A stretch of DNA of 64,000 bases from Strigamia acuminata. Its lineage: Eukaryota > Arthropoda > Chilopoda > Geophilomorpha > Linotaeniidae. The position numbers were made by a program, and so were the translations under genes. Below are positions 26,750 to 40,331 of this stretch, piece by piece. The stretch spans positions 8,542,501 through 8,606,500 of the forward strand of contig OX442318.1 of assembly GCA_949358305.1 (NCBI GenBank). The letters are read 5' to 3'. Position 1 is the stretch's first letter; each line of letters opens with the position of its first letter. Below the pieces are notes generated by a model. The model searched no databases. It was not told the DNA's origin and was given only the letters and a program-made list of their open reading frames with translations.

Positions 26750-29405
26750 TTTTGTTTTTTTTGTCTATTTTCTCTTTTAGCTCATTTAAAGGTAAATTGT
26801 GTCTTAAAATTATGCTTGTTTTTTCTTGTCTATTTTCTCTTTTAGCTCATTTAAAGGTAAATTGTGTTTAATTATGCTTGTTTTTTCTTGTCTATTTTCT
26901 CTTTTAGCTCATTTAAAGGTAAATTGTGTTTAATTATGCTTGTTTTTTCTTGTCTATTTTCTCTTTTAGCTCATTTAAAGGTAAATTGTGTCTTAAAATT
27001 ATGCTTGTTTTTTCTTGTCTATTTTCTCTTTTAGCTCATTTAAAGGTAAATTGTGTTTAATTATGCTTGTTTTTTCTTGTCTATTTTCTCTTTTAGCTCA
27101 TTTAAAGGTAAATTGTGTTTAATTATGCTTGTTTTTTCTTGTCTATTTTCTCTTTTAGCTCATTTAAAGGTAAATTGTGTTTAATTATGCTTGTTTTTTC
27201 TTGTCTATTTTCTCTTTTAGCTCATTTAAAGGTAAATTGTGTTTAATTATGCTTGTTTTTTCTTGTCTATTTTCTCTTTTAGCTCATTTAAAGGTAAATT
27301 GTGTTTAATTATGCTTGTTTTTTCTTGTCTATTTTCTCTTTTAGCTCATTTAAAGGTAAATTGTGTTTAATTATGCTTGTTTTTGCTTGTCTATTTTCTC
27401 TTTTAGCTCATTTAAAGGTAAATTGTGTCTTTAATTATGCTTGTTTTTTCTTGTCTATTTTCTCTTTTAGCTCATTTAAAGGTAAATTGTGTCTTAAAAT
27501 TATGCTTGTTTTTTCTTGTCTATTTTCTCTTTTAGCTCATTTAAAGGTAAATTGTGTTTAATTATGCTTGTTTTTTCTTGTCTATTTTCTCTTTTAGCTC
27601 ATTTAAAGGTAAATTGTGTTTAATTATGCTTGTTTTTGCTTGTCTATTTTCTCTTTTAGCTCATTTAAAGGTAAATTGTGTCTTTAATTATGCTTGTTTT
27701 TTCTTGTCTATTTTCTCTTTTAGCTCATTTAAAGGTAAATTGTGTCTTAAAATTATGCTTGTTTTTTCTTGTCTATTTTCTCTTTTAGCTCATTTAAAGG
27801 TAAATTGTGTTTAATTATGCTTGTTTTTTCTTGTCTATTTTCTCTTTTAGCTCATTTAAAGGTAAATTGTGTTTAACTATGCTTGTTTTTTCTTGTCTAT
27901 TTTCTCTTTTAGCTCATTTAAAGGTAAATTGTGTTTAATTATGCTTGTTTTTTCTTGTCTATTTTCTCTTTTAGCTCATTTAAAGGTAAATTGTGTTTAA
28001 TTATGCTTGTTTTTTCTTGTCTATTTTCTCTTTTAGCTCATTTAAAGGTAAATTGTGTTTAATTATGCTTGTTTTTTCTTGTCTATTTTCTCTTTTAGCT
28101 CATTTAAAGGTAAATTGTGTTTAACTATGCTTGTTTTTTCTTGTCTATTTTCTCTTTTAGCTCATTTAAAGGTAAATTGTGTTTAACTATGCTTGTTTTT
28201 TCTTGTCTATTTTCTCTTTTAGCTCATTTAAAGGTAAATTGTGTTTAATTATGCTTGTTTTTTCTTGTCTATTTTCTCTTTTAGCTCATTTAAAGGTAAA
28301 TTGTGTTTAATTATGCTTGTTTTTTCTTGTCTATTTTCTCTTTTAGCTCATTTAAAGGTAAATTGTGTTTAATTATGCTTGTTTTTTCTTGTCTATTTTC
28401 TCTTTTAGCTCATTTAAAGGTAAATTGTGTTTAACTATGCTTGTTTTTTCTTGTCTATTTTCTCTTTTAGCTCATTTAAAGGTAAATTGTGTTTAATTAT
28501 GCTTGTTTTTTCTTGTCTATTTTCTCTTTTAGCTCATTTAAAGGTAAATTGTGTTTAATTATGCTTGTTTTTGCTTGTCTATTTTCTCTTTTAGCTCATT
28601 TAAAGGTAAATTGTGTCTTTAATTATGCTTGTTTTTTCTTGTCTATTTTCTCTTTTAGCTCATTTAAAGGTAAATTGTGTCTTAAAATTATGCTTGTTTT
28701 TTCTTGTCTATTTTCTCTTTTAGCTCATTTAAAGGTAAATTGTGTTTAATTATGCTTGTTTTTGCTTGTCTATTTTCTCTTTTAGCTCATTTAAAGGTAA
28801 ATTGTGTTTAATTATGCTTGTTTTTTCTTGTCTATTTTCTCTTTTAGCTCATTTAAAGGTAAATTGTGTTTAATTATGCTTGTTTTTGCTTGTCTATTTT
28901 CTCTTTTAGCTCATTTAAAGGTAAATTGTGTTTAATTATGCTTGTTTTTGCTTGTCTATTTTCTCTTTTAGCTCATTTAAAGGTAAATTGTGTTTAATTA
29001 TGCTTGTTTTTTCTTGTCTATTTTCTCTTTTAGCTCATTTAAAGGTAAATTGTGTTTAATTATGCTTGTTTTTGCTTGTCTATTTTCTCTTTTAGCTCAT
29101 TTAAAGGTAAATTGTGTTTAATTATGCTTGTTTTTTCTTGTCTATTTTCTCTTTTAGCTCATTTAAAGGTAAATTGTGTTTAATTATGCTTGTTTTTGCT
29201 TGTCTATTTTCTCTTTTAGCTCATTTAAAGGTAAATTGTGTCTTTAATTATGCTTGTTTTTTCTTGTCTATTTTCTCTTTTAGCTCATTTAAAGGTAAAT
29301 TGTGTGTTTAATTGTGCTTGTTTTTTCTTGTCTATTTTCTCTTTTAGCTCATTTAAAGGTAAATTGTGTGTTTAATTGTGCTTGTTTTTACTTGTCTATT
29401 TTCTC
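26750..29405 (+). repeat. 62-bp minisatellite, about 43 copies
   Basis: The basic unit is 62 bases, with 64- and 65-base variants (GTGTCTTTAATT and GTGTCTTAAAATT). Units are almost identical, so the array is young or homogenised. A 253-base higher-order block (62+62+64+65) occurs three times, starting at 27301, 27554 and 28489. Every unit contains TTTTCTCTTTTAG, then CTCATTTAAAG, then GTAAATTG. Open frames across the array are by-products of the repeat. Confidence 0.97.
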
Positions 29406-29470: not shown

Positions 29471-29748
29471 TAGTGTTGAGGAACGATGCCAATTATTAAT
29501 AGACTTCTCTAGAAAATAGATGAACCTTTAATCTAACTTAAAATCCATACTTTACATGAGGTTTATCATTTCAGCATGGGGGCTGCCATCTTGGCTGCCT
29601 TGTCATCATGAGAAAAGTAGAGAGAAGTGAAGTCTGCCCCTCTAGTGACAGATTAAGTAACCTCTCATAAGTCACCAGTGGACTCTGGTGACTGAATTGC
29701 ACAGTATAACAGCACAACTTACAGAGATCTATAAGTGACATTAACAAA
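29471..29748 (-). repeat. Possible 3' LTR of the copia element
   Basis: Lies just beyond the RNase H end. Read on -, it starts near TGTTAATGTC and ends CCTCAACA, compatible with TG...CA ends. No second copy exists in the window to prove it. Confidence 0.3.
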
Positions 29749-29750
29749 AT

Positions 29751-30585
29751 ATTCACAATTGTTAAATTATAAATAGATACATCGGCGACATTTAAATCAC
29801 CAGGAACTTTAGTTAATTTAAATATGCCGCCTAAATACCATTCACGCAGAAAATAGAATTTAACTCTAGTATGTTTAGTACGACTGTTTTCCAGATTGTT
29901 CTCAGCAAATTGAATTGTCGCCAGTGCATCGGAATAAATTACAGGAGTTGAAATATCATCAAATAATCGACAATTTTCGCAAACAGCACCTAACCAATAG
30001 GTTTCGCGCACACAGTCAACTAGAGACACGTACTCAGCCTCCATTGTGCTTGTAGCAACGTTAGACTGTTTTCGACAATTCCACACAATAGGCGCCCCAC
30101 CTACGTAAACAATAAATCCACCGAAACTTCGGCAGGTAGTGGGGTCAGACGTCTAAGATGCATCTGTATATGCTCATAAATGTTCCGAATTACACTGCAA
30201 CAAGTCAATCCTGTTATGAGATGTATTGCAAACGTATTGCAAAACTTGCAACAACGCTTTAACATGTCTTTCCGTATGAGCACCGTTAAATTGAGACGAT
30301 ACAATTATAGAATACAGAATATCCGGCCTAGTACGGGATGCAAGGAACAATAGTGACCCTATTAAAGATCTATATGGAAAATCATTTGGTTTCACGTTTG
30401 CATTTCGCACTAATGTAGTATTGGGTGTTACGGTCACTTTAACTAAATAATTAGGAACAATTTTAAATCGTTTACAAAGCTTTCGACTATATTCGAACTG
30501 TGACATGAACACTATTGTTTTCTCTAGTAAACTCGACCCCTAAGAGTACTTTAATCGGACCCAACTCAACGATAATAAAGCATGA
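29751..30585 (-). pseudogene. Copia RT C-terminus and RNase H
   Basis: Two overlapping broken frames. The first has FPYRSLIGSLLFLASRTRPD, typical of the copia RT-RNase H connection. The second has ATSTMEAEYVSL, TRETYWL-like ETYWL, IYSDALATIQFAEN and KHTRVKFYFLRE, the acidic and histidine landmarks of copia RNase H. It ends at GDLNVAD. A frameshift joins the two. Confidence 0.88.
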
Positions 30586-30610
30586 AGATATTCGCTTAAT
30601 AATCTCCCTT

Positions 30611-31234
30611 TTAATGTCCGGCGTCGATGAAAACAATCATATCGTCTACATAAACTAGTAGTACTGCTTTGTTGTCAAATAAATACACACAATTACATCC
30701 TCGTAGTTTGTAGAAGCCTATTTTCTGTAGCGATTCGTCTAACTTTTGGTGCCACATTCTTCCAGATTGGTGCAACCCATACAGAGCCTTCTTAAGAAAC
30801 CACACATCATTAGGTCCTGATGATGTGACTCCTAATGGTATAAACATATAAATCGACTTATCCAGGTCTCCGTAGAGGTAAGCGCACTTGACATCAATGT
30901 GTTTGTCCGACTAACCACGTAAAACCACGAGTAAACAGAAGAAAAGACGAATTAGCACAGAATTGACGACGGGAGAAAACACCACGTCGAAATCAATCTC
31001 TAGAGTTTGCCGGAATCCTTGCGCAACTAACCTTGCGCGATATCGAACTACTTCTCCAAACTCGTTCCACTTTCGTTTGAAGATCCATCTGTTGCCCAAT
31101 ATGGTTCGGTTCTTCGACTTCTCTACGACGTCATAAACATCACGCTCGATAAATGTAGAAAGCTCCTCATTCATGGCTTCCTGCCATTCTTTCTTCTGAG
31201 GTGATTTTATTGCTTCTGCATATGTCCTCGGCTC
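30611..31234 (-). pseudogene. Copia reverse transcriptase
   Basis: The N-terminal part has AYAEAIKSP-like TYAEAIKSPQKKEWQEAM, NRWIFKRKWNEFGEVVRYRA and RLVAQGF. After a break come LKKALYGLHQSGRMW and the catalytic YVDDM. A stop and frame change near 30850-30910 separate the two parts. Template copying would require an intact frame, so it is inactive here. Confidence 0.93.
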
Positions 31235-32228
31235 ACAAGGAGACCGCAAGAGTGTGTAATCCACAATTGTTAAAATTGTTTGTAAATAAAGCATTCACAT
31301 CACCTAAACAATCTATTTTTCTCATATTAAAATGCACCTCTCTCTCACATTGTTACAAACAGTAACAACACACAGGATTCCTTGCTGTGTGTTGAAACAC
31401 CATTTTTTGATATTTTGAGTAAAAAGGTCAAGTGTAGCACTACATTTGGTGATTAGCTTGTTCAAACCTTACTCTGGAACCCAGGTAATTTGATATCACA
31501 TGACATATGACATCACAACTTTGTTCACCAACATGACTGCCTGCATGAAGCAGCAATAGTGTGTTGTGGTGGCTCAGTGGTTAAGGTAATGAATCAGGAA
31601 TCTTTCCACACAGGTTCAAATCCTGTTGTTGGTGAAAATTTTTACTTTTATTTTTTCTTTATTTTTAGCAGTAAAGTTAATGTTTGTTATTTTATATTTG
31701 TTTTTAAAAAATTTTAATTAATTAATTTAATATAATTAAAATTATAAAAAAAAATTTTAAAAAAAATATAAAATAACAAACATTAACTTTACTGCTAAAA
31801 ATAAAGAAAAAATAAAAGTAAAAATTTTCACCAACAACAGGATTTGAACCTGTGTGGAAAGATTCCTGATTCATTACCTTAACCACTGAGCCACCACAAC
31901 ACACTATTGCTGCTTCATGCAGGCAGTCATGTTGGTGAACAAAGTTGTGATGTCATATGTCATGTGATATCAAATTACCTGGGTTCCAGAGTAAGGTTTG
32001 AACAAGCTAATCACCAAATGTAGTGCTACACTTGACCTTTTTACTCAAAATATCAAAAAATGGTGTTTCAACACACAGCAAGGAATCCTGTGTGTTGTTA
32101 CTGTTTGTAACAATGTGAGAGAGAGGTGCATTTTAATATAAGAAAAATAGATTGTTTAGGTGATGTGAATGCTTTATTTACAAACAATTTTAACCATTGT
32201 GGATTACACACTCTTGCGGTCTCCTTGT
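31235..32228. mobile_element. 1-kb palindromic fold-back element with tRNA-like boxes
   Basis: Two near-identical arms of about 490 bases meet at about 31731. Ends read ACAAGGAGACCGCAAGAGTG and its inverse. Each arm contains TGGCTCAGTGG (31570-31580 in the left arm), a pol III A-box match, and GGTTCAAATCC (31613-31623), a B-box match inside a 5-bp T-arm-like stem. The acceptor stem does not pair, so it is tRNA-derived rather than a tRNA gene. Inserted between the MBD-like and RT segments of the copia element. A single arm occurs at 13976-14830. Confidence 0.9.
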
Positions 32229-32693
32229 CAGCAATGGTAAGATGTGCTCGAGGCTGTCTTCTAGTGACATTACTTGGTAAAGTCAGCTCATCGTCTTCTG
32301 ACTCCAAAGATTGACATGGTAAAAGTTCTTTATGTTGCTCTATCGAAGTGAAAATGAACTTTGACTTGTCATAAGGAATTTCAAGTTGCCTGCACTCTTC
32401 TACATCTGCGTAACTCCTAAGTCGTCTTCCTGTGAGAGAAAAGTAATAAACATCGATTTCCCCTCTTGTGACACCGCTCTGCCTGACGTGTTCTTCAAGT
32501 CTCCATTTCTTATAAATAGATTTTCCGCCAATTAAACGCCAAATAAACACAGGCGCTTCCGGTTTCCTCTGAGCTTCTTTCGAAAGTGCATCCAAACTAG
32601 GCGATCGTCTTCTCATGGGATCTGGAAAAACGACAGGTTCAGACTGGTTGCTGGTGGCAGGTGTCGGCTTAAGTATAGACTTAGGTGGTGATG
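32229..32693 (-). pseudogene. MBD (methyl-CpG-binding)-like segment of the copia polyprotein
   Basis: Open on - between two insertions, in the position of the integrase-RT linker. From the methionine at 32616, residues 1-33 are a basic linker. Residues about 34-91 (32344-32517) read as an MBD: W38, RQSG at 45-48, GEIDVYYFS at 52-60, GRRLRS at 63-68 and FIFT at 87-90. R45, D55, Y57 and R67 fall where MeCP2 has R111, D121, Y123 and R133, which contact methylated CpG. An acidic, serine-rich tail follows (SLESEDDEL). MBDs bind methylated DNA in chromatin. A targeting role for the integration complex is inference, by analogy with the Ty5 targeting domain found in the same place. No stops inside the segment itself. 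Confidence 0.75.
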
Positions 32694-32695
32694 TA

Positions 32696-33285
32696 CCATA
32701 TTACCCCGCTTATTGCTGCATGCCGGTGTAGTGCGCGTATTACCGGCATGCCGATAAACCCCGTTTTTAACGGCATGCCAGTGTAAATGAGTACGAATTT
32801 TTTTTTCACCGTATCGGTACATCAATTATACGTCCATTATACGTTTGCTTCTTCACCACAGTGTTTGTTAGCTTTGACTTTATTCGTTTTTTTCCAACAA
32901 TGGACGTGGTTACTACAGCAACAAACAAACGGAAGCGGTTTAGCTACAGTATAGCGTTGATTTTAAAATCAATGCCTTGAAACTTCTTGCAGAATTAAAT
33001 AACAACTTATCAGCTACTGCTAAATCGCTTAATGTATCGAGATCGTCTGTTCAAGATTGGGCAAAACAAAAAGAAGAACTGTTGGCGTGCAGTTCTGCTA
33101 GAGAATTTAATGCTAAAAGATGCCGACAAATTAAGCCTGAGTAAAGGAAAGTTTCCTTTACTGGAAGAAAGTTTGGTGTCGTGGATTAAAGAGGAGAGAA
33201 AAATTGGGTACACTTTTTACGCGCGATTTGAAAACCGTCATAAACCCATGCCCAACGGCATGCAGCAATAGGCGGGGTAATATGG
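32696..33285 (+). mobile_element. Non-autonomous pogo-like transposon
   Basis: 590 bases with ends CCATATTACCCCGC and its inverse over about 30 bases, flanked by a TA target duplication (32694-32695 and 33286-33287). It carries a decayed N-terminal piece of a pogo/Tigger transposase: KRKRFSYS, LKLLAELNNNLSATAKSLNV, VQDWAKQKEELL, then after a frameshift KFPLLEESLVSWIKEER. This is the CENP-B-type DNA-binding region. The catalytic domain is absent. It interrupts the copia polyprotein after the integrase. Confidence 0.85.
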
Positions 33286-33287
33286 TA

Positions 33288-34850
33288 TGTTCCTTTGTCG
33301 GTGAAGCAGCTTGCTGTCTTGGAGGTGATTGGGGTGGCGAGCTCCTTTTAGAAGAATTTGATTCGTCACTGCTACTCGAATCGTAGTCATCATGGAACTT
33401 TGGCACTATAAAATAGTCATCTTGATGACCTCCCAATTTCTCGACATCCTGCAAGTTCTTAACTTCTCCCAATTTCTTGTGGAAATCCCGATACAACACA
33501 GATTCGTCTATTTTCAAATGTTTTGTTTCTGTGATTCGGTTCATGTCCGGATAGCCCAATGTGTCAATCGCATAACCGACTAGTACACCTCGCCATGCAT
33601 TGGGTTCAAGTTTGCCACGTTGTTTTGAAGGAATGTTCACAAAACACTGTGATCCGGGACGACGTAAATGACGGAGCGATAGGCGACGTTTCCTCCACAA
33701 CACGTATGGAATCTCGTAATTGACGCGAGAATGTGGAAACCGATTTTTCAGGTACGTGAAAGTAACTGCCAGTTCTGCGCATAGTCTATCAGGCAATCCG
33801 GTTTCATCTAGCATCGATCTTACGCCTTCGAAAATCGTCCTATTAAAGCGTTCCGCCGATCCAATCATTTCGGCTGAATACGGATTCCTTCTGCAATAAC
33901 ATATTTAGTGAATTCATTCGAAATAAACTCTCCACCACGATCTGTTCGGATTGCTTTGATCTTTTTTTCAGAAGTACGCTGAACAAATGGCACAAAGTCT
34001 TTAAACACTTGAAAAACTACGCTTTTTCTTGCCATTGGGAATACCCAAGCATATCTTGTGGCATCATCGATGATGGTTAATAAATAACTAGCTCCTCCAC
34101 TCGATGGCACACTGCATCCATATGTAGCAGTTCCAAGGGATCTGATGCAACACGATCATCCTTTCGTGGAAATGAGGCTCTCGTTGATTTCGAACGTGAA
34201 CAAGAATTACACAAAAACTTCTTATCTAAATTGCAATTGTCAACACCAAATACTTTGGGATTCTCAGAAAGTTTCTTAATTGATTGGACATTCATATGAG
34301 CCAATCTGGAATGCCATAATCTCATCTTATCTTTAGCTTTTACTTGATTTGCGCTTTTAAATTCGCACACATTACTAATTTTCTCCCTATTCTTGTTATT
34401 ATTGGACTTTTGCGCATTATTCATGTCACATTCCCAACTAACAGTAGGGAATAAGTCACCAAAAACACTTAAATTAGTAAATATTTCAATACAATCATTA
34501 TTCGAGACACTTGATGGCTTTTGTTTACTATCATTATTTGAAACATTATTGGATACATTTAGCGGTTTTTGCTTTATCTTTTCCTTAGCAGGAGGTTCAT
34601 TTACGTGTGCAATTACATTAGATAATTTTTGAACAGTTTCATCAAAATAATAAAGCCCATCTTGTAAAGATCCTTTCATCACTGCTAATGTGGCATTTTT
34701 ATCAAAAACCGTCAATGTTCCATTTCCAATACCAATTTTATAACCAGCTAAATCCATACGAGACACTGAGATCAGATTGGTTGAGAACTGAGACGCATAA
34801 TAGACATTTTTCAATGTTATTGATTCAGTAGTTTTGCCAATATTTGCCAA
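33288..34850 (-). pseudogene. Copia integrase
   Basis: 34850-34077 has the zinc-binding LWHSRLAHMN ... CNSCSRSK, then the first catalytic aspartate in HMDAVC. 34110-33865 has LLTIIDDATRYAWVF and IRTDRGGEF (second aspartate). 33868-33288 has GSAERFNRT (glutamate), VNIPSKQRGKLEPNAWRGV and a serine-rich acidic tail. Two frameshifts separate the three blocks. DD(35)E residues are all still readable. The tail leads, across the pogo insertion, into the MBD-like segment. Confidence 0.92.
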
Positions 34851-34980
34851 CTGTACAACTTCCAGTCAAGGTTGAGGAACCTTGACCCAATGCTAATTGA
34901 AAAGGAGTAATTTCATTAAATTCTTTGAAATCATCTCTATTAAAGCAAACATGGTCTGTTGCGCCAAAGTCAATAATTCA
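34851..34980 (-). pseudogene. Copia protease, mutated active site
   Basis: The expected DSGATDH reads DFGATDH, preceded by a stop. The downstream FNEITPFQLALGQGS fits copia protease. The serine-to-phenylalanine change at the active-site motif and the stop would each disable it. Confidence 0.8.
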
Positions 34981-35612
34981 ATCCTCACCCTTACAACTTG
35001 TGCCAAAAGAAACAACAGGTATTTTAGGCCTTTTAGGAGCCAATGCATAAAACATCACTTTGTCCTTTTGAACTTTACTTGCAGACGGATTTTTACGTCT
35101 GTTTTTACTTTTTGACCTCGAATTGGAACCGCTGTCTTGTCTTGAATTTTCCCGACGCTGTTGTGGATGGGGGCATCTACTCGCGTAATGTCCAAGTTCA
35201 TTACAGTTGTAGCACGTGATTTCACTAATGTCGCGTTTCGACTGTCCGGAAGCACGATCCCCCGTTGAATATGCCTTGTTATCGGGTTTAGATCCGACTA
35301 ATCCGCCGTCGTTGTATTTCAGACGTGCGTATTCTGACATCAATTGTTCCGCAACCTTTTTCGGTGTGAATTCTGGGTCTCCCCAGTGATAAATCGAGAA
35401 TACTGCTTGGCTGTACGCTGCCGGAAGAAAATCTAAATACTGATACGCACAATGGGTATCCGAAACGTCTTCCTTCATGTCCTTTAGCTGCCGTCGAGCT
35501 CGGTCAACTCTAGAAATGAAGACGCCCATTTCCTCATCGTTTTCCATTCGCATCTGTAAAAAGTCCCGGCGCATCCGTGCTTGCCTGGCTCTCGAACTGG
35601 GTTTTTCAACAT
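34978..35612 (-). pseudogene. Copia gag, 5'-truncated
   Basis: Continuous frame of about 210 residues with MRRDFLQMRM, VSDTHCAYQYLDFLP and a CCHC knuckle, CYNCNELGHYASRCP, followed by an arginine/serine-rich tail. The N-terminal part is lost at the junction with the Tc1-like fragment. Confidence 0.9.
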
Positions 35613-35619
35613 GACCTGA

Positions 35620-36040
35620 CTCTCGCTCATGGTGTGGGCCTCTATTACTAGTGAGCAGTGTAAGAAGTTAGTGGACTTGATGCCGCGACGAGTGAAGACT
35701 GTGATTGATGCAAAAGGAGGACCAACCAAATACTAAATGCTGTCATTCCTTAAATGAGTGGGATAGATAAGATTTCTGTCTCTTTTCACAATTATTCTAA
35801 TTTTTTGTCTCAACACTTTTGTGATTCTAATGTTTTGTCACAGACGTTTTTGTGGATAGTGGGATAAATATCTCACCTTTTTAAGATTTTTTTTTGCTTA
35901 AAATAAAGCCAATTAAACATGTTTTCAAAGTATTTTTGTGGATATTTGTTTAACTTTGAAACTTTTGTTTCTAGCCCATTTGAGGAACATGGAATACTGA
36001 CAAAATCCGAGTATTCCAATATTTTGGCTTGGGGTTGTAC
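35620..36040 (-). mobile_element. Tc1-like terminal fragment
   Basis: 35770-36040 is the inverted partner of 21274-21530 (GGCTTGGGGTTGTAC end). The inner part has GGTTGGTCCTCCTTTTGCAT on -, with no transposase domain. It abuts truncated copia gag. Confidence 0.75.
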
Positions 36041-36344: not shown

Positions 36345-36765
36345 TTGCAAAAAAGCCGGACGTCCAATATTCAGAATTCACCTCAGTCTTTTCTATGAAC
36401 ACAAGTTTGAGCAACAATACAAAATAGCCATCTCTGCCTTAGATGAGAACTATACTTGCCTTGCAGTAGTATCATGTGAGAGAAAATTGTTTCCGACTCT
36501 TCCTCAGTTTCAATACTCAAAAGGGATGATTGCTTTTGAGTACATTTTTTGGATGCTTCAATCCAGTTTACTCTTTCTTGAGAGAAGTGATAACAACCAC
36601 TTCCCAAGGCAATAAATCCATCAGGACATTTTACACACCAGCAAAATGAAGTGATGCAAAACATGATGAATAAAGCTAAGAGAAAAATTCATTTGAAAAT
36701 GTACCACAAAATTAACACACATTTAAAATTTAACTTAAACTTTTCTTACATAAAATTACCCACAT
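36345..36765 (-). pseudogene. Truncated CTLD lectin gene lacking its last exon
   Basis: Exons 36750-36765 (MWVIL start), 36460-36675 (216 bases) and 36345-36392 (48 bases) are open and in frame. They encode a signal peptide (SLFIMFCITSFCW), GCYHFSQERVNWIEASKKC and YWTSG. The exon 2 donor is GCAAGT, a GC-AG intron. No C-terminal CTLD exon follows to the left, where Tc1 and copia DNA begins within 310 bases, so exon 4 has been lost or displaced. Otherwise it matches the 37606-38356 gene exon for exon. Confidence 0.75.
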
Positions 36766-37189
36766 AATTTGCCCACAAGTTCAAATAAAGAACAATAACA
36801 ATATATTTCCACATTTTCTTTCCCTTAACTGATTATTTTTATCACAGTTTCAAATGTTAAGTGAGCACAAAAGTGCAATTAAATGTTGAAATTTACAGGA
36901 AATCAAAGATTGAAATGTGAAATCACTAATCATACAAAAACAAAACTCACTGACCATTGAAAATTAAAAACAGCCTTAGCAATGATTCTCTGTAATGTAA
37001 ACATTATGTCTAAAATGTAGTTTCCAATGCAATATCAAAACTCTTGTAAATCTTATGCTTCAGTGAGAAAACAACAATAAAATTATCGGAAACATCCTAT
37101 ATGCCCAGTAAGCTATCCTACAATAGAAATGCCTGGACACATGACTTGTTCGAACAGAACACCTCCTAGCCAGTCCCCCCCCGAAGTGG
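36766..37189. other. Promoter-side spacer
   Basis: No gene or named repeat seen. AT-rich. Confidence 0.35.
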
Positions 37190-37445
37190 GTTAATTTCAT
37201 CGAATTCCGTTTCCTCGAATTCAGTTTCCTCGAATTCCGTTTCATCGAATTCAGTTTCGATTACCTAAATATGATGACTTTTTTCTTTTCTCCTAAGAAA
37301 TGCCTAACAAGAGGGACTATGGCCCCCCTTAAACCCCCCAACCTCCCGTTAACTGTTTTTTTTTGTCTGCACGCTGCGAAACCCATTTGCCACTTTCAGA
37401 CTTCGGGATTCGAGGAAACAGGATTCAATGAAATGAACCCATCCG
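37190..37445. mobile_element. MITE with GAATTCAGTTTC repeats in its end
   Basis: Left end GGGTTAATTTCATCGAATTC, right end an imperfect inverse (GAGGAAACAGGATTCAATGA). The left arm has four tandem 16-base variants. Confidence 0.65.
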
Positions 37446-37605
37446 GAGCTGACCTCGGGGTCATTGGTGTGTGTCAGTGACGTAGGACACCCTTGGATAG
37501 CCAAGCGGTCACAGGATTAAGCTTCAATGGGTCTTACAAATAAATAATTCTTATAGACACTAAAATTTCTTATTTATTAATTCATTCATTCCACCACACG
37601 AAAAC

Positions 37606-38356
37606 TTATATTTCATGGATAGATATCTCATAAGCAATTTTATCATCATCCTTCGACGCAGTCGCTTCGGCTTCGGCTTCGCAAATGAAATGCATGGGAT
37701 GCTTGCTGTGGGTCGTTGAATGAAGACAACCTCTGTCATTCCAACAAGCCTTTGTGTGCGGAGCTTCAACATTTGTCAAGTGAACGCAGAATTCGTCATT
37801 CTCCCAATTATTTGGTTCACCACGACACCAGGCGGTGTAAGTAAAAGGTTCCCAAGACGAAGCCCAAACAAATTCGGCTTTGCGTGGACCCGAAACCTCT
37901 GCAAAACGATTCAATAAAAATACAAACAAATCTCTTAACAAATTTCAAGTTTACTTGCTAAAAAGCCAGACGTCCAATAATTGACAGCGATTTTCCTTTC
38001 AGCTAAAAAGAAAATCCTTATAAATACTATAAAACCATAAATGGGCATTTCTTAACCATTTTCCTTTACTGCCTGCTTGAAAGTTACCATTGCTTCTTCT
38101 TCAGTTTCAATGGCCAAAAGAGTTGCATCCATTTCGAAACATTTGATTTCCGCTTCTACCCAGGTTGCCGGTTCGTCGGAATAGTAGTAACAACGACCTT
38201 CCAAGTCCAAGAATCCTTTAGGACATTCAACACACAACCCCATCGAATGCGTGCAAAACACGACGAATACAACTTTTAAAAAGATCAAAAATTAATTAAA
38301 ATCTAAAAAAAAGAAAATATTTAATAAAATATTTTCTTACCTAAAATGGTCCGCAT
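37606..38356 (-). CDS. Secreted single-CTLD lectin-like protein with IHEI tail
   Basis: Exons leftwards: 38341-38356, 38057-38272, 37955-38002 and 37606-37898; 573 bases, 190 residues. Signal peptide MRTILVVFVVFCTHSMG. CTLD: RCYYYSDEPATWVEAEIKC, YWTSG, AWCRGEPNNWENDEFC, CWNDRGC, FICEAE. EPN, the following acidic residue and WND make a complete mannose-type site by comparison with mannose-binding protein. The tail is acidic and ends DDDKIAYEISIHEI, shared with the 45508-46949 gene. No membrane segment. The donor after exon 2 is GTTAAG, somewhat weak. Confidence 0.88.
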
Positions 38357-39328
38357 GATACCAGTAGTTGAAGCAAAGTGAATAGTTCGATAAAGATTGT
38401 TTCAGTTATGTATTTTTACACTTGCGCGACATTCATCAAATGGCAAATGTCATACTTACAAGTTAGTGGAAACATGCATTATCAGCCTTCCCACATTCCT
38501 AAATTCTTAAATGTCAATTTTCTGCGATATTGTGATATTGCCTCGCATCGCTTTTGCAATGTCAGAGACTATACTCTGAACCGATATAACGTTGACCTAT
38601 TTCCCAATTGGTTGAGCCGTATTACGCCTAACTATTTGACTGCTCTACTACACAGAGAAGTAGTTCTGTTTTTTTTTTCAATGAATTTCAGTGTATAAAG
38701 TGATTAGAATGATGGTTTATATTTTTTTAAAAGATCAATCAAATAATGTCAGCATGTTTTGTTGGTTTCCAGTAGATTCAAGACTGATGCAGATAGGTTC
38801 TTAAAAGACTCACCGGAATAGAATTCTGGTTATTTTTGGGTAACCCCTCGTATAAAGATTAAACCAGGAGAGTTCCGCTACAAATTTTATTAGTTCCAAC
38901 CGTTCACACCAAGTGAGGTGTGGAATAAACATTCTAATATTACTATGTTTATACGCACCGAATATTTTGAATGGTCAATAATTCGAGTGGTGAAAAAATC
39001 AAATTGTTGTGTTTACATGCAGAAAATAATTCGTGATCACTTTCGGTTTTCGACCAATGGGGATGTGCCGAAAGCGATGCGCGCATGCGCAATAAAAATA
39101 GTTCGAGTTCACTCTAATTAAACAACCTTCTGCGAGGGACTATTCACTACTCGAATAATCCTTGTCATCCCTGTTTACATGACAGTTGTGCGCACGACAT
39201 ATTTCATCTCACTCGAATTATTCCAAAATTTTACGCTTATTATCAAATGTACAAAAACCAGCATCAATTTTACAGCAAAAAAAAAAAACAAGAAAATGTT
39301 GTTTTAATAATTCCACTATGTAATTATA
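38357..39328. other. Spacer with MITE remnants
   Basis: 38568-38690 is one end of a family C MITE (TATACTCTGAACCGATATAA). 38890-39230 has GTTTACATG motifs near both ends and ATAATTCGAGTGG against CACTCGAATTATT, suggesting another MITE. No gene seen. Confidence 0.5.
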
Positions 39329-40331
39329 CTAAGAGTAGGACAAAAATGTATAGAAGACCAAAGCCACCAAAATACTGGCGCCACCATGCAGAACAACCCC
39401 TGAACTAACAAGTTTCTCTACTTTCCCTGTTTCTTCTACTTCGTTGTTTTCCAAATTCGTGTATTTCATACTGTTATCACATTCCACAGGTGGCAAATAC
39501 GGTTCAGTTTCGCATATGTAATGCATGGGATGTCTGCTGTGTGTCGTTGACTCCCAGCAACCTCTGTCGTTCCAACAAGCTTTGGTGTTGTGGGATTGGA
39601 GATTTGTCAAGTGGATGCAATCCTCGTCGTTCATCCAGTTGTTTGGCTCACCATGACACCAGGCAGTGTAAGTCAAAGGCTCCCAGGTCGACGACCAAAC
39701 AAACTGAGAATTTCGTCTAGCCGAAACTCCTAAAAAGTGGCCATTAAATAAATCTCATGCAGATGTTAGAAAATTTCAATTTTACTTGTCCCGGATGTCC
39801 AATACCCAAACGGCTCTTTCTTCACTAGAAAGAAAATCATTACAAAATATAAGATGCCATTTTGACAGAAATTTCAAACTGTTTTTGAAAAATTTGTACA
39901 TTCTACAACTAAAAAGTGCACTTGTGTGTCTACAAGTAAAAAGTGCATTTTTGTGTCTAAAAAGTGCATTTTTGCATCTAAAAAGTGCATTTTTGTGTCC
40001 AAAAAGTGCATTTTTGTGTCCAAAAAGAGAATTTTGTTGTTACCATTTTCCTTGACTGCTTGATTAAAAACTAACATTGCTTCTTCCTCGGTTTGAATGC
40101 TCAAAAGAAACGATTGCATGTGAATACATTTCTTTGATGCTTCTATCCTATTTGCTGTTTCTGTGGAGAAGTAGTAACAGCGACCACCCAAGTCAATAAA
40201 TTTATCTGGACATTCAACACACCACCCCAACGAGAGTGTACAGCAGATGATGTGTAAAACTGACAATAAAAAAATTGATTTTAAATATTGAAAATTCAAT
40301 TTCCAGTTTTCTTACCCAAAAAGGTTTTCAT
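39329..40331 (-). CDS. Membrane-anchored single-CTLD lectin-like protein
   Basis: Exons leftwards: 40316-40331, 40044-40259, 39786-39824 and 39329-39729; 672 bases, 223 residues. Signal peptide with VLHIICCTLSLGW. CTLD: RCYYFSTETANRIEASKKC, YWTSG, AWCHGEPNNWMNDEDC, CWNDRGC, YICETE. A complete EPN/WND site. After the CTLD come a spacer and a hydrophobic end (GASILVALVFYTFL) with no basic cytoplasmic tail, which fits a GPI anchor signal better than a transmembrane helix. The NWIEA tryptophan of its relatives is NRIEA. Intron 2 starts with an in-frame 21-bp repeat. Confidence 0.87.
39908..40035. repeat. 21-bp minisatellite in intron 2
   Basis: About six units of AAAAAGTGCATTTTTGTGTC plus one base. 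Read from exon 2 without splicing, it encodes repeats of FLDTKMH. Confidence 0.9.

Follow-up and report, generated by a model that had tools for sequence, protein, structure and literature searches.

An MBD2-like methyl-CpG-binding domain in a degraded Ty1/copia element of Strigamia acuminata and in related copies across the genome

The degraded copia element and its MBD

The window analysed here is a whole stretch of 64,000 nucleotides of Strigamia acuminata DNA (contig OX442318.1). It contains the remains of a Ty1/copia element on the minus strand. A methyl-CpG-binding domain (MBD), closest to that of MBD2, lies in the linker between the integrase (IN) and the reverse transcriptase (RT) of this element. 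The copy is a broken relic, with coding pieces spread over several frames, and it is located mid-chromosome, at 0.47 of the chromosome length from the nearer end. The features are given below in window coordinates.

29571..35667, minus strand: coding pieces of the degraded Ty1/copia element (Pfam; two frames below 30540 have no Pfam match and were placed by position)
34978..35667, minus strand: gag, with Retrotran_gag_2 and a CCHC zinc knuckle (38.9 and 29.1 bits)
34077..34865, minus strand: Pol_BBD (below cut-off) and GAG-pre-integrase (21.4 and 41.5 bits)
33865..34155, minus strand: frame with the rve core of the integrase, recognised by eye
33158..33904, minus strand: C-terminal part of the integrase with SH3_retrovirus, upstream of the MBD (52.7 bits)
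32694..33287, no strand: TIR insertion of 0.6 kb that splits IN from the MBD (35-nt arms, 94% complementary)
32098..32700, minus strand: open frame with the MBD; its part below 32233 (3') enters the palindromic insertion
32345..32511, minus strand: MBD2-like methyl-CpG-binding domain in the IN-RT linker (Pfam, PDB sequence match, Foldseek)
31231..32232, no strand: near-perfect palindrome between the MBD and the RT (arms of 493 nt each, 98% complementary, separated by 16 nt)
30611..31294, minus strand: RVT_2 downstream of the MBD, in two frames (30911-31294 and 30611-30910; 66.1 and 74.4 bits)

The earlier note had read an IN-MBD-RT order in a copia polyprotein. This order was recovered, with SH3_retrovirus upstream and RVT_2 downstream of the MBD. 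The edges given there for the domain, 32229-32693, nearly coincide with the edges of the two later insertions and have to be narrowed; the domain itself occupies about 32345-32511. The palindrome is a member of a fold-back element family. Its arm recurs at many loci, where it is often paired about 0.9 kb apart (by eye). A tRNA-like box was suspected in the palindrome by eye; ARAGORN found no tRNA.

Profile, sequence and fold comparisons were used to characterize the MBD. With an E of 3.7e-6, the PF01429 profile scored 26.9 bits against the open frame 32098-32700, above its curated cut-off of 21 bits, and profile positions 14-51 of 77 were aligned at 32395-32508. The top phmmer match among the PDB sequences was MBD2 (7ao8_C, E 4.1e-6; 6c1a_A, E 6.7e-6), spanning residues 63-117 of the same frame. 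An AlphaFold model was obtained from 15 aligned MBD pieces, with modest confidence (mean pLDDT 63.9; 44 of 83 residues between 70 and 90). Its best Foldseek match was the MBD2 structure 6c1a_E (E 9.1e-4, probability 1.00, TM 0.43-0.51), which was the one match at E <=0.001. Ranks 1-35 were MBD structures (TM about 0.4-0.6), and ranks 36-41 were BAZ2 TAM domains. The modelled domain is predicted to have an MBD fold. The MBD-like fold that had been proposed for this minus-strand segment is upheld by the profile score above the curated cut-off, and by MBD2 as the best relative in both the PDB sequence and the Foldseek comparisons.

An Arg, an Asp, a Tyr and a second Arg of the MBD are DNA-contact residues. 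All four (4/4) are present in the window copy, where they align with the contact residues of MBD2. We take them to correspond to R111, D121, Y123 and R133 of MeCP2, and the claim that none of the four is missing was correct. A search of a phage collection gave no match.

MBD-bearing elements in the genome and the host MBD2/3

Of the 1,092 candidates from a whole-genome search with PF01429, the best 150 were scored and considered. One of them, at C3:20309085, is a BAZ2-like host exon by eye. With the window ORF as query, 49 further places covering the MBD were identified, none of them shared with the PF01429 list; this number does not include hits to the palindrome, to the window copy or to its 78% relative. 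There are at least 198 MBD matches besides the window copy and one recognised host gene, a part of which was read individually. Among the matches listed, the window copy has a single close relative, at 78%.

The order SH3_retrovirus-MBD-RVT_2 was found in 8/8 loci that were Pfam-scanned in pieces (L009, L012, L013, L016, L019, L020, L021 and L022), and the MBD scored 41.7-47.7 bits in these loci. The pieces of L009, L012 and L013 contain the full order of gag2, CCHC, pre-integrase, rve with SH3, and RVT_2. The MBD frame was followed at 18 loci, and 13 of these have stop-free frames of 1,514-1,718 codons. The earlier note had suggested a genome search for intact IN-MBD-RT copies, and such copies exist; a poor MBD score and family copies lacking the segment, which it had named as counter-evidence, were not encountered.

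LTRs were looked for at 19 loci. At five of them (L009, L013, L015, L024 and L028), LTR-like direct repeats share 99.7-100% identity across 304-494 bp, and transposition has therefore been recent at these loci. The 494-bp LTRs of L015 are 100% identical and are flanked by a 5-bp repeat, which was read by eye as a target-site duplication. L016 has a 94-bp repeat match and L011 is a tandem; at the other 12 loci the stretch examined showed no LTR pair. Three intact copies are not CpG-depleted (CpG o/e 0.99-1.14). The absence of CpG depletion fits young elements, and provides no indication of past methylation. A protein search with one L012 piece gave 744 candidates, none at E 1e-3.

Some MBD copies are paired in the same direction at a distance of about 6,264 bp (C4:2572224/2578489, C5:2334209/2340473 and C12:416531/422794). 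L011, the C4 pair, contains a 1,236-bp repeat at 100% identity with a period of 6,265. Either LTR exchange or self-insertion produced tandem elements at these places, or the pairs result from the assembly.

In an alignment of 15 MBD rows, the Arg, the Asp and the second Arg are invariant. The position of the contact tyrosine is variable: Y in nine rows (window copy included), V in three, W in two, and I in one. In the RT tree, the V/W/I types present fall in one subclade of six rows (support 100/99). The ten MBD-bearing rows form one group (100/98) together with L063b, whose MBD content was unread. This group is apart from seven other copia RTs, judged to be without an MBD from mostly shorter frames and from the lack of a scored MBD match within 1.5 kb, and from L013b, whose MBD content was also unread. 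The MBD tree is weakly resolved (1/14 inner branches starred). A phylogeny against the host MBD2/3 had been proposed earlier; in it, 14/14 element MBDs stand apart from the host MBD2/3 and human MBD2, on a branch with support 87/98 that is not starred. The element MBDs share 0.29-0.43 identity with the host MBD2/3, and are very divergent from each other. There are several divergent MBD-copia lineages in S. acuminata. We read these sequences as probably descended from one ancestral copia element that acquired an MBD2/3-type domain a single time, with long divergence afterwards.

One host MBD2/3 gene was recognised by its MBD_C domain (C5:5733100-5739100; L036, L038). Its MBD is split by an intron and followed by MBD_C. 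The element MBDs are the same domain, with MBD2 as their best PDB kin, and they have no break where the intron splits the host gene. The host MBD2/3 has F at the position of the MBD2 contact Y. Mammalian MBD3 also has F at the methyl-contact position. The F occurs in the host protein although the congener S. maritima is reported to methylate its DNA strongly (PMC7343188). In the same report, 0.758 of 719 TEs of S. maritima are highly methylated, which is called an independent gain (PMC7343188); four Dnmt1 and one Dnmt3 are described for this species (PMC4244043). In the S. acuminata genome, 11 cytosine-methyltransferase matches were found, and four loci were read as DNMT1 by eye. The undepleted CpG had raised the idea of a host without DNA methylation; it was dropped given these DNMT1-like loci and the S. 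maritima methylome as reported (PMC7343188).

Chromosomal distribution and flanking sequences

The distribution of the MBD matches was compared with those of other copia and of gypsy-type RVT_1 matches; all sets are the best-scored matches of larger candidate sets, and so represent samples. In the outer 10% of the chromosomes, 88 of 178 MBD matches were located, versus 17 of 147 other copia (p 6e-17). Five groups of the PF01429 list, cut by list order and ORF length and not by residues read per copy, each differ from other copia in end clustering (p 4e-8 to 6e-3). The 49-place window-ORF list also differs from other copia (p 2e-9).

The gypsy-type matches served as a control, and 58 of 142 were located in the outer 10% (versus MBD, p 0.014; without the Y chromosome, p 0.18). 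No Chromo match was found within 8 kb of the gypsy-type RVT_1 matches (0/150), with all 104 Chromo candidates scored. The gypsy-type elements are also end-biased, and therefore the end regions form a compartment for LTR elements in general, where the sampled other copia are scarce. Since the same bias is seen in elements for which no chromodomain was found, the distribution alone is no proof of targeting; end clustering was set aside as such a proof after this control. Part or all of the end bias may be passive retention. The Chromo matches themselves lie repeatedly, on many contigs, in frames of about 321-328 codons or about 373 codons, as a repeated family apart from the gypsy-type RTs, and they are end-biased too (37/88 in the outer 10%).

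The unplaced contigs hold 20/198 MBD, 3/150 other copia and 8/150 gypsy-type matches. In the S. acuminata assembly qcStrAcum1.1, C12 fits X and C13 fits Y (PMC10556566). C13 holds 23/150 of the gypsy-type, 15/198 of the MBD, 4/150 of the other copia and 20/92 of the Chromo matches.

The flanks were selected by eye from the various contigs, always 2.7-3.7 kb downstream of where the match starts; the 20 MBD flanks all come from the PF01429 profile-match list, and mainly represent the V/W/I types. The flanks of the MBD matches contain 6.3 CpG per 100 bp versus 3.1 for other copia (20 versus 20 flanks, p 0.0017). Without three flanks that match element sequence, the values are 6.6 (17 flanks) and 3.1 (20 flanks; p 0.0014). 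The GC content is 0.445 versus 0.340 (p 0.0045), and the CpG o/e is 1.24 versus 1.01 (p 0.081). The flank difference is as much one of GC as of CpG.

Related systems and the proposed role of the MBD

An arthropod retrotransposon family with a captured, functionally active MBD has been described (de Mendoza, Pflueger and Lister, Genome Res 2019;29:1277-1286, doi 10.1101/gr.243774.118), and a paper of 2020 ties this family to S. maritima (PMC7343188); the work is also cited in a paper of 2024. The earlier note knew of no described copia family with an MBD at this place; a family of this kind, reportedly of copia elements, had been described in 2019. The 2019 elements are reportedly copia elements with the MBD between IN and RT. 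Their MBD is said to bind CpG-dense methylated DNA, and their copies are said to lie where CpG is denser than around other LTR elements. A spider reportedly has such elements too. Set beside the 2019 family by description, the elements studied here share the MBD in a retrotransposon polyprotein and the host genus Strigamia. The kind was published in 2019 and has been tied to S. maritima, and therefore the S. acuminata elements are most likely a congeneric member of that family. What differs here is the host species, the divergent lineages with one V/W/I subclade, and the window relic split by two insertions. These lineages and this subclade, together with the preference for chromosome ends and CpG-dense flanks that other copia do not share, are the additions of the present analysis; the lineage diversity and the tyrosine replacement are possibly covered by the 2019 paper already.

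Chromatin readers are also found in other LTR elements. Chromodomains read histone marks. In Ty5, a copia element of yeast, the C-terminus of the integrase contains a segment that targets chromatin, a short peptide that binds a silencing protein. The elements studied here resemble Ty5 as Ty1/copia elements with a putative segment of this sort; however, Ty5 has no MBD fold. Chromoviruses are Ty3/gypsy elements with a chromodomain at the integrase C-terminus (PMC3605345). They likewise have a chromatin reader next to the integrase, but belong to the other superfamily; the window element has the copia order, and an MBD instead of the chromodomain. DNMT-bearing retrotransposons, which are LINE, DIRS and gypsy elements, have also captured a host DNA-methylation protein, in their case the writer enzyme (PMC5890265, PMC6338049). 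The copia of Symbiodinium are without a DNMT domain according to one of these reports (PMC5890265).

Our preferred reading, which we regard as probable, is that the window holds a decayed copy of a copia element whose ancestor captured an MBD2/3-type domain between IN and RT, and that the MBD would bring integration to methylated, CpG-rich TE chromatin. After processing, the MBD would remain joined to the integrase or close to it, and would bind CpG-rich methylated repeat DNA. Once bound, it would tether the integration complex at chromatin rich in TEs and keep it off genes, in the manner of the chromodomains of chromoviruses. In a genus that methylates its TEs, methylated repeat DNA might be a safe landing zone. 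The domain, its place in the element, its conservation over several lineages, the single RT clade and the biases relative to other copia are observations; the binding, the tethering and the causal role of the MBD are what we infer. Steering of integration by the MBD, as the earlier note had proposed, is a plausible idea that the distribution data would fit. The replaced contact tyrosine in one subclade, the end bias of the gypsy-type elements, the flank difference in GC as much as in CpG, the undepleted CpG of the intact copies and the mid-chromosome location of the window copy were counted against the steering explanation.

A less likely explanation, which still deserves some weight, is that the MBD does not aim integration and acts in another step. 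It might bind the element's own methylated copies, displace or mimic the host MBD2/3 silencing complex, or handle nucleic acid in the particle, and the distribution would then be passive. The gypsy-type elements, end-biased with no chromodomain found nearby, are consistent with this; so is the persistence of the clustering in groups where the methyl-contact tyrosine is gone, the groups being those cut by list order and ORF length. However, the MBD directly follows the integrase, like the known targeting modules of chromoviruses and Ty5, and the other copia of the same genome are not end-biased, with 17/147 in the outer 10%. These two points speak against a role outside targeting. Different copia lineages might also have captured host MBDs independently, which we consider improbable. 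The low identity to the host MBD2/3 (0.29-0.43), the strong mutual divergence of the element MBDs and the weak MBD tree with its 1/14 starred inner branches would allow it; but the RTs of the MBD-bearing copies form one clade (100/98), and the domain sits at one and the same place in the scanned loci. The remaining explanation, that a host MBD exon landed in a single copia copy by accident or that the match itself is fortuitous, was rejected as extremely unlikely. The window copy is broken, and the one close relative (78%) among the matches listed would suit a single accident, but at least 198 further scored matches, the same place in 8/8 scanned loci, the intact frames, the absence of a break at the intron point of the host MBD2/3, and the significant Pfam, PDB-sequence and fold matches all speak against it.

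The tyrosine position decides methyl selectivity, according to work on MBD2 and MBD3. The Y-to-F change in MBD3 reportedly gives binding to CpG-dense DNA regardless of methylation. The replaced tyrosine suggests, at the level of sequence, that part of the family may now read CpG density more than methylation. It is a tentative idea, on balance doubtful, that one RT subclade, to which the intact copies read of the V, W and I types belong, switched specificity once (Y to V/W/I, with R, D and R kept), so that it may seek CpG-dense DNA regardless of methylation, with sister lineages still directed to methyl-CpG. If such a switch occurred, it would be a natural paired experiment in integration targeting within one genome.

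Retroelements with a captured methylation reader offer a direct test of whether a mobile element uses the epigenetic map of its host to land. The principle has been published. The S. acuminata genome adds a chromosome-scale host, many intact copies and several lineages, in which copies with and without the methyl-contact tyrosine coexist beside copia apparently without an MBD.

Two other features of the window were observed near the element. Several open frames on the minus strand at 36383-40311 resemble tandem C-type lectin domains by eye, and a repeat array at 27298-28749 contains three occurrences of one 87-codon frame.
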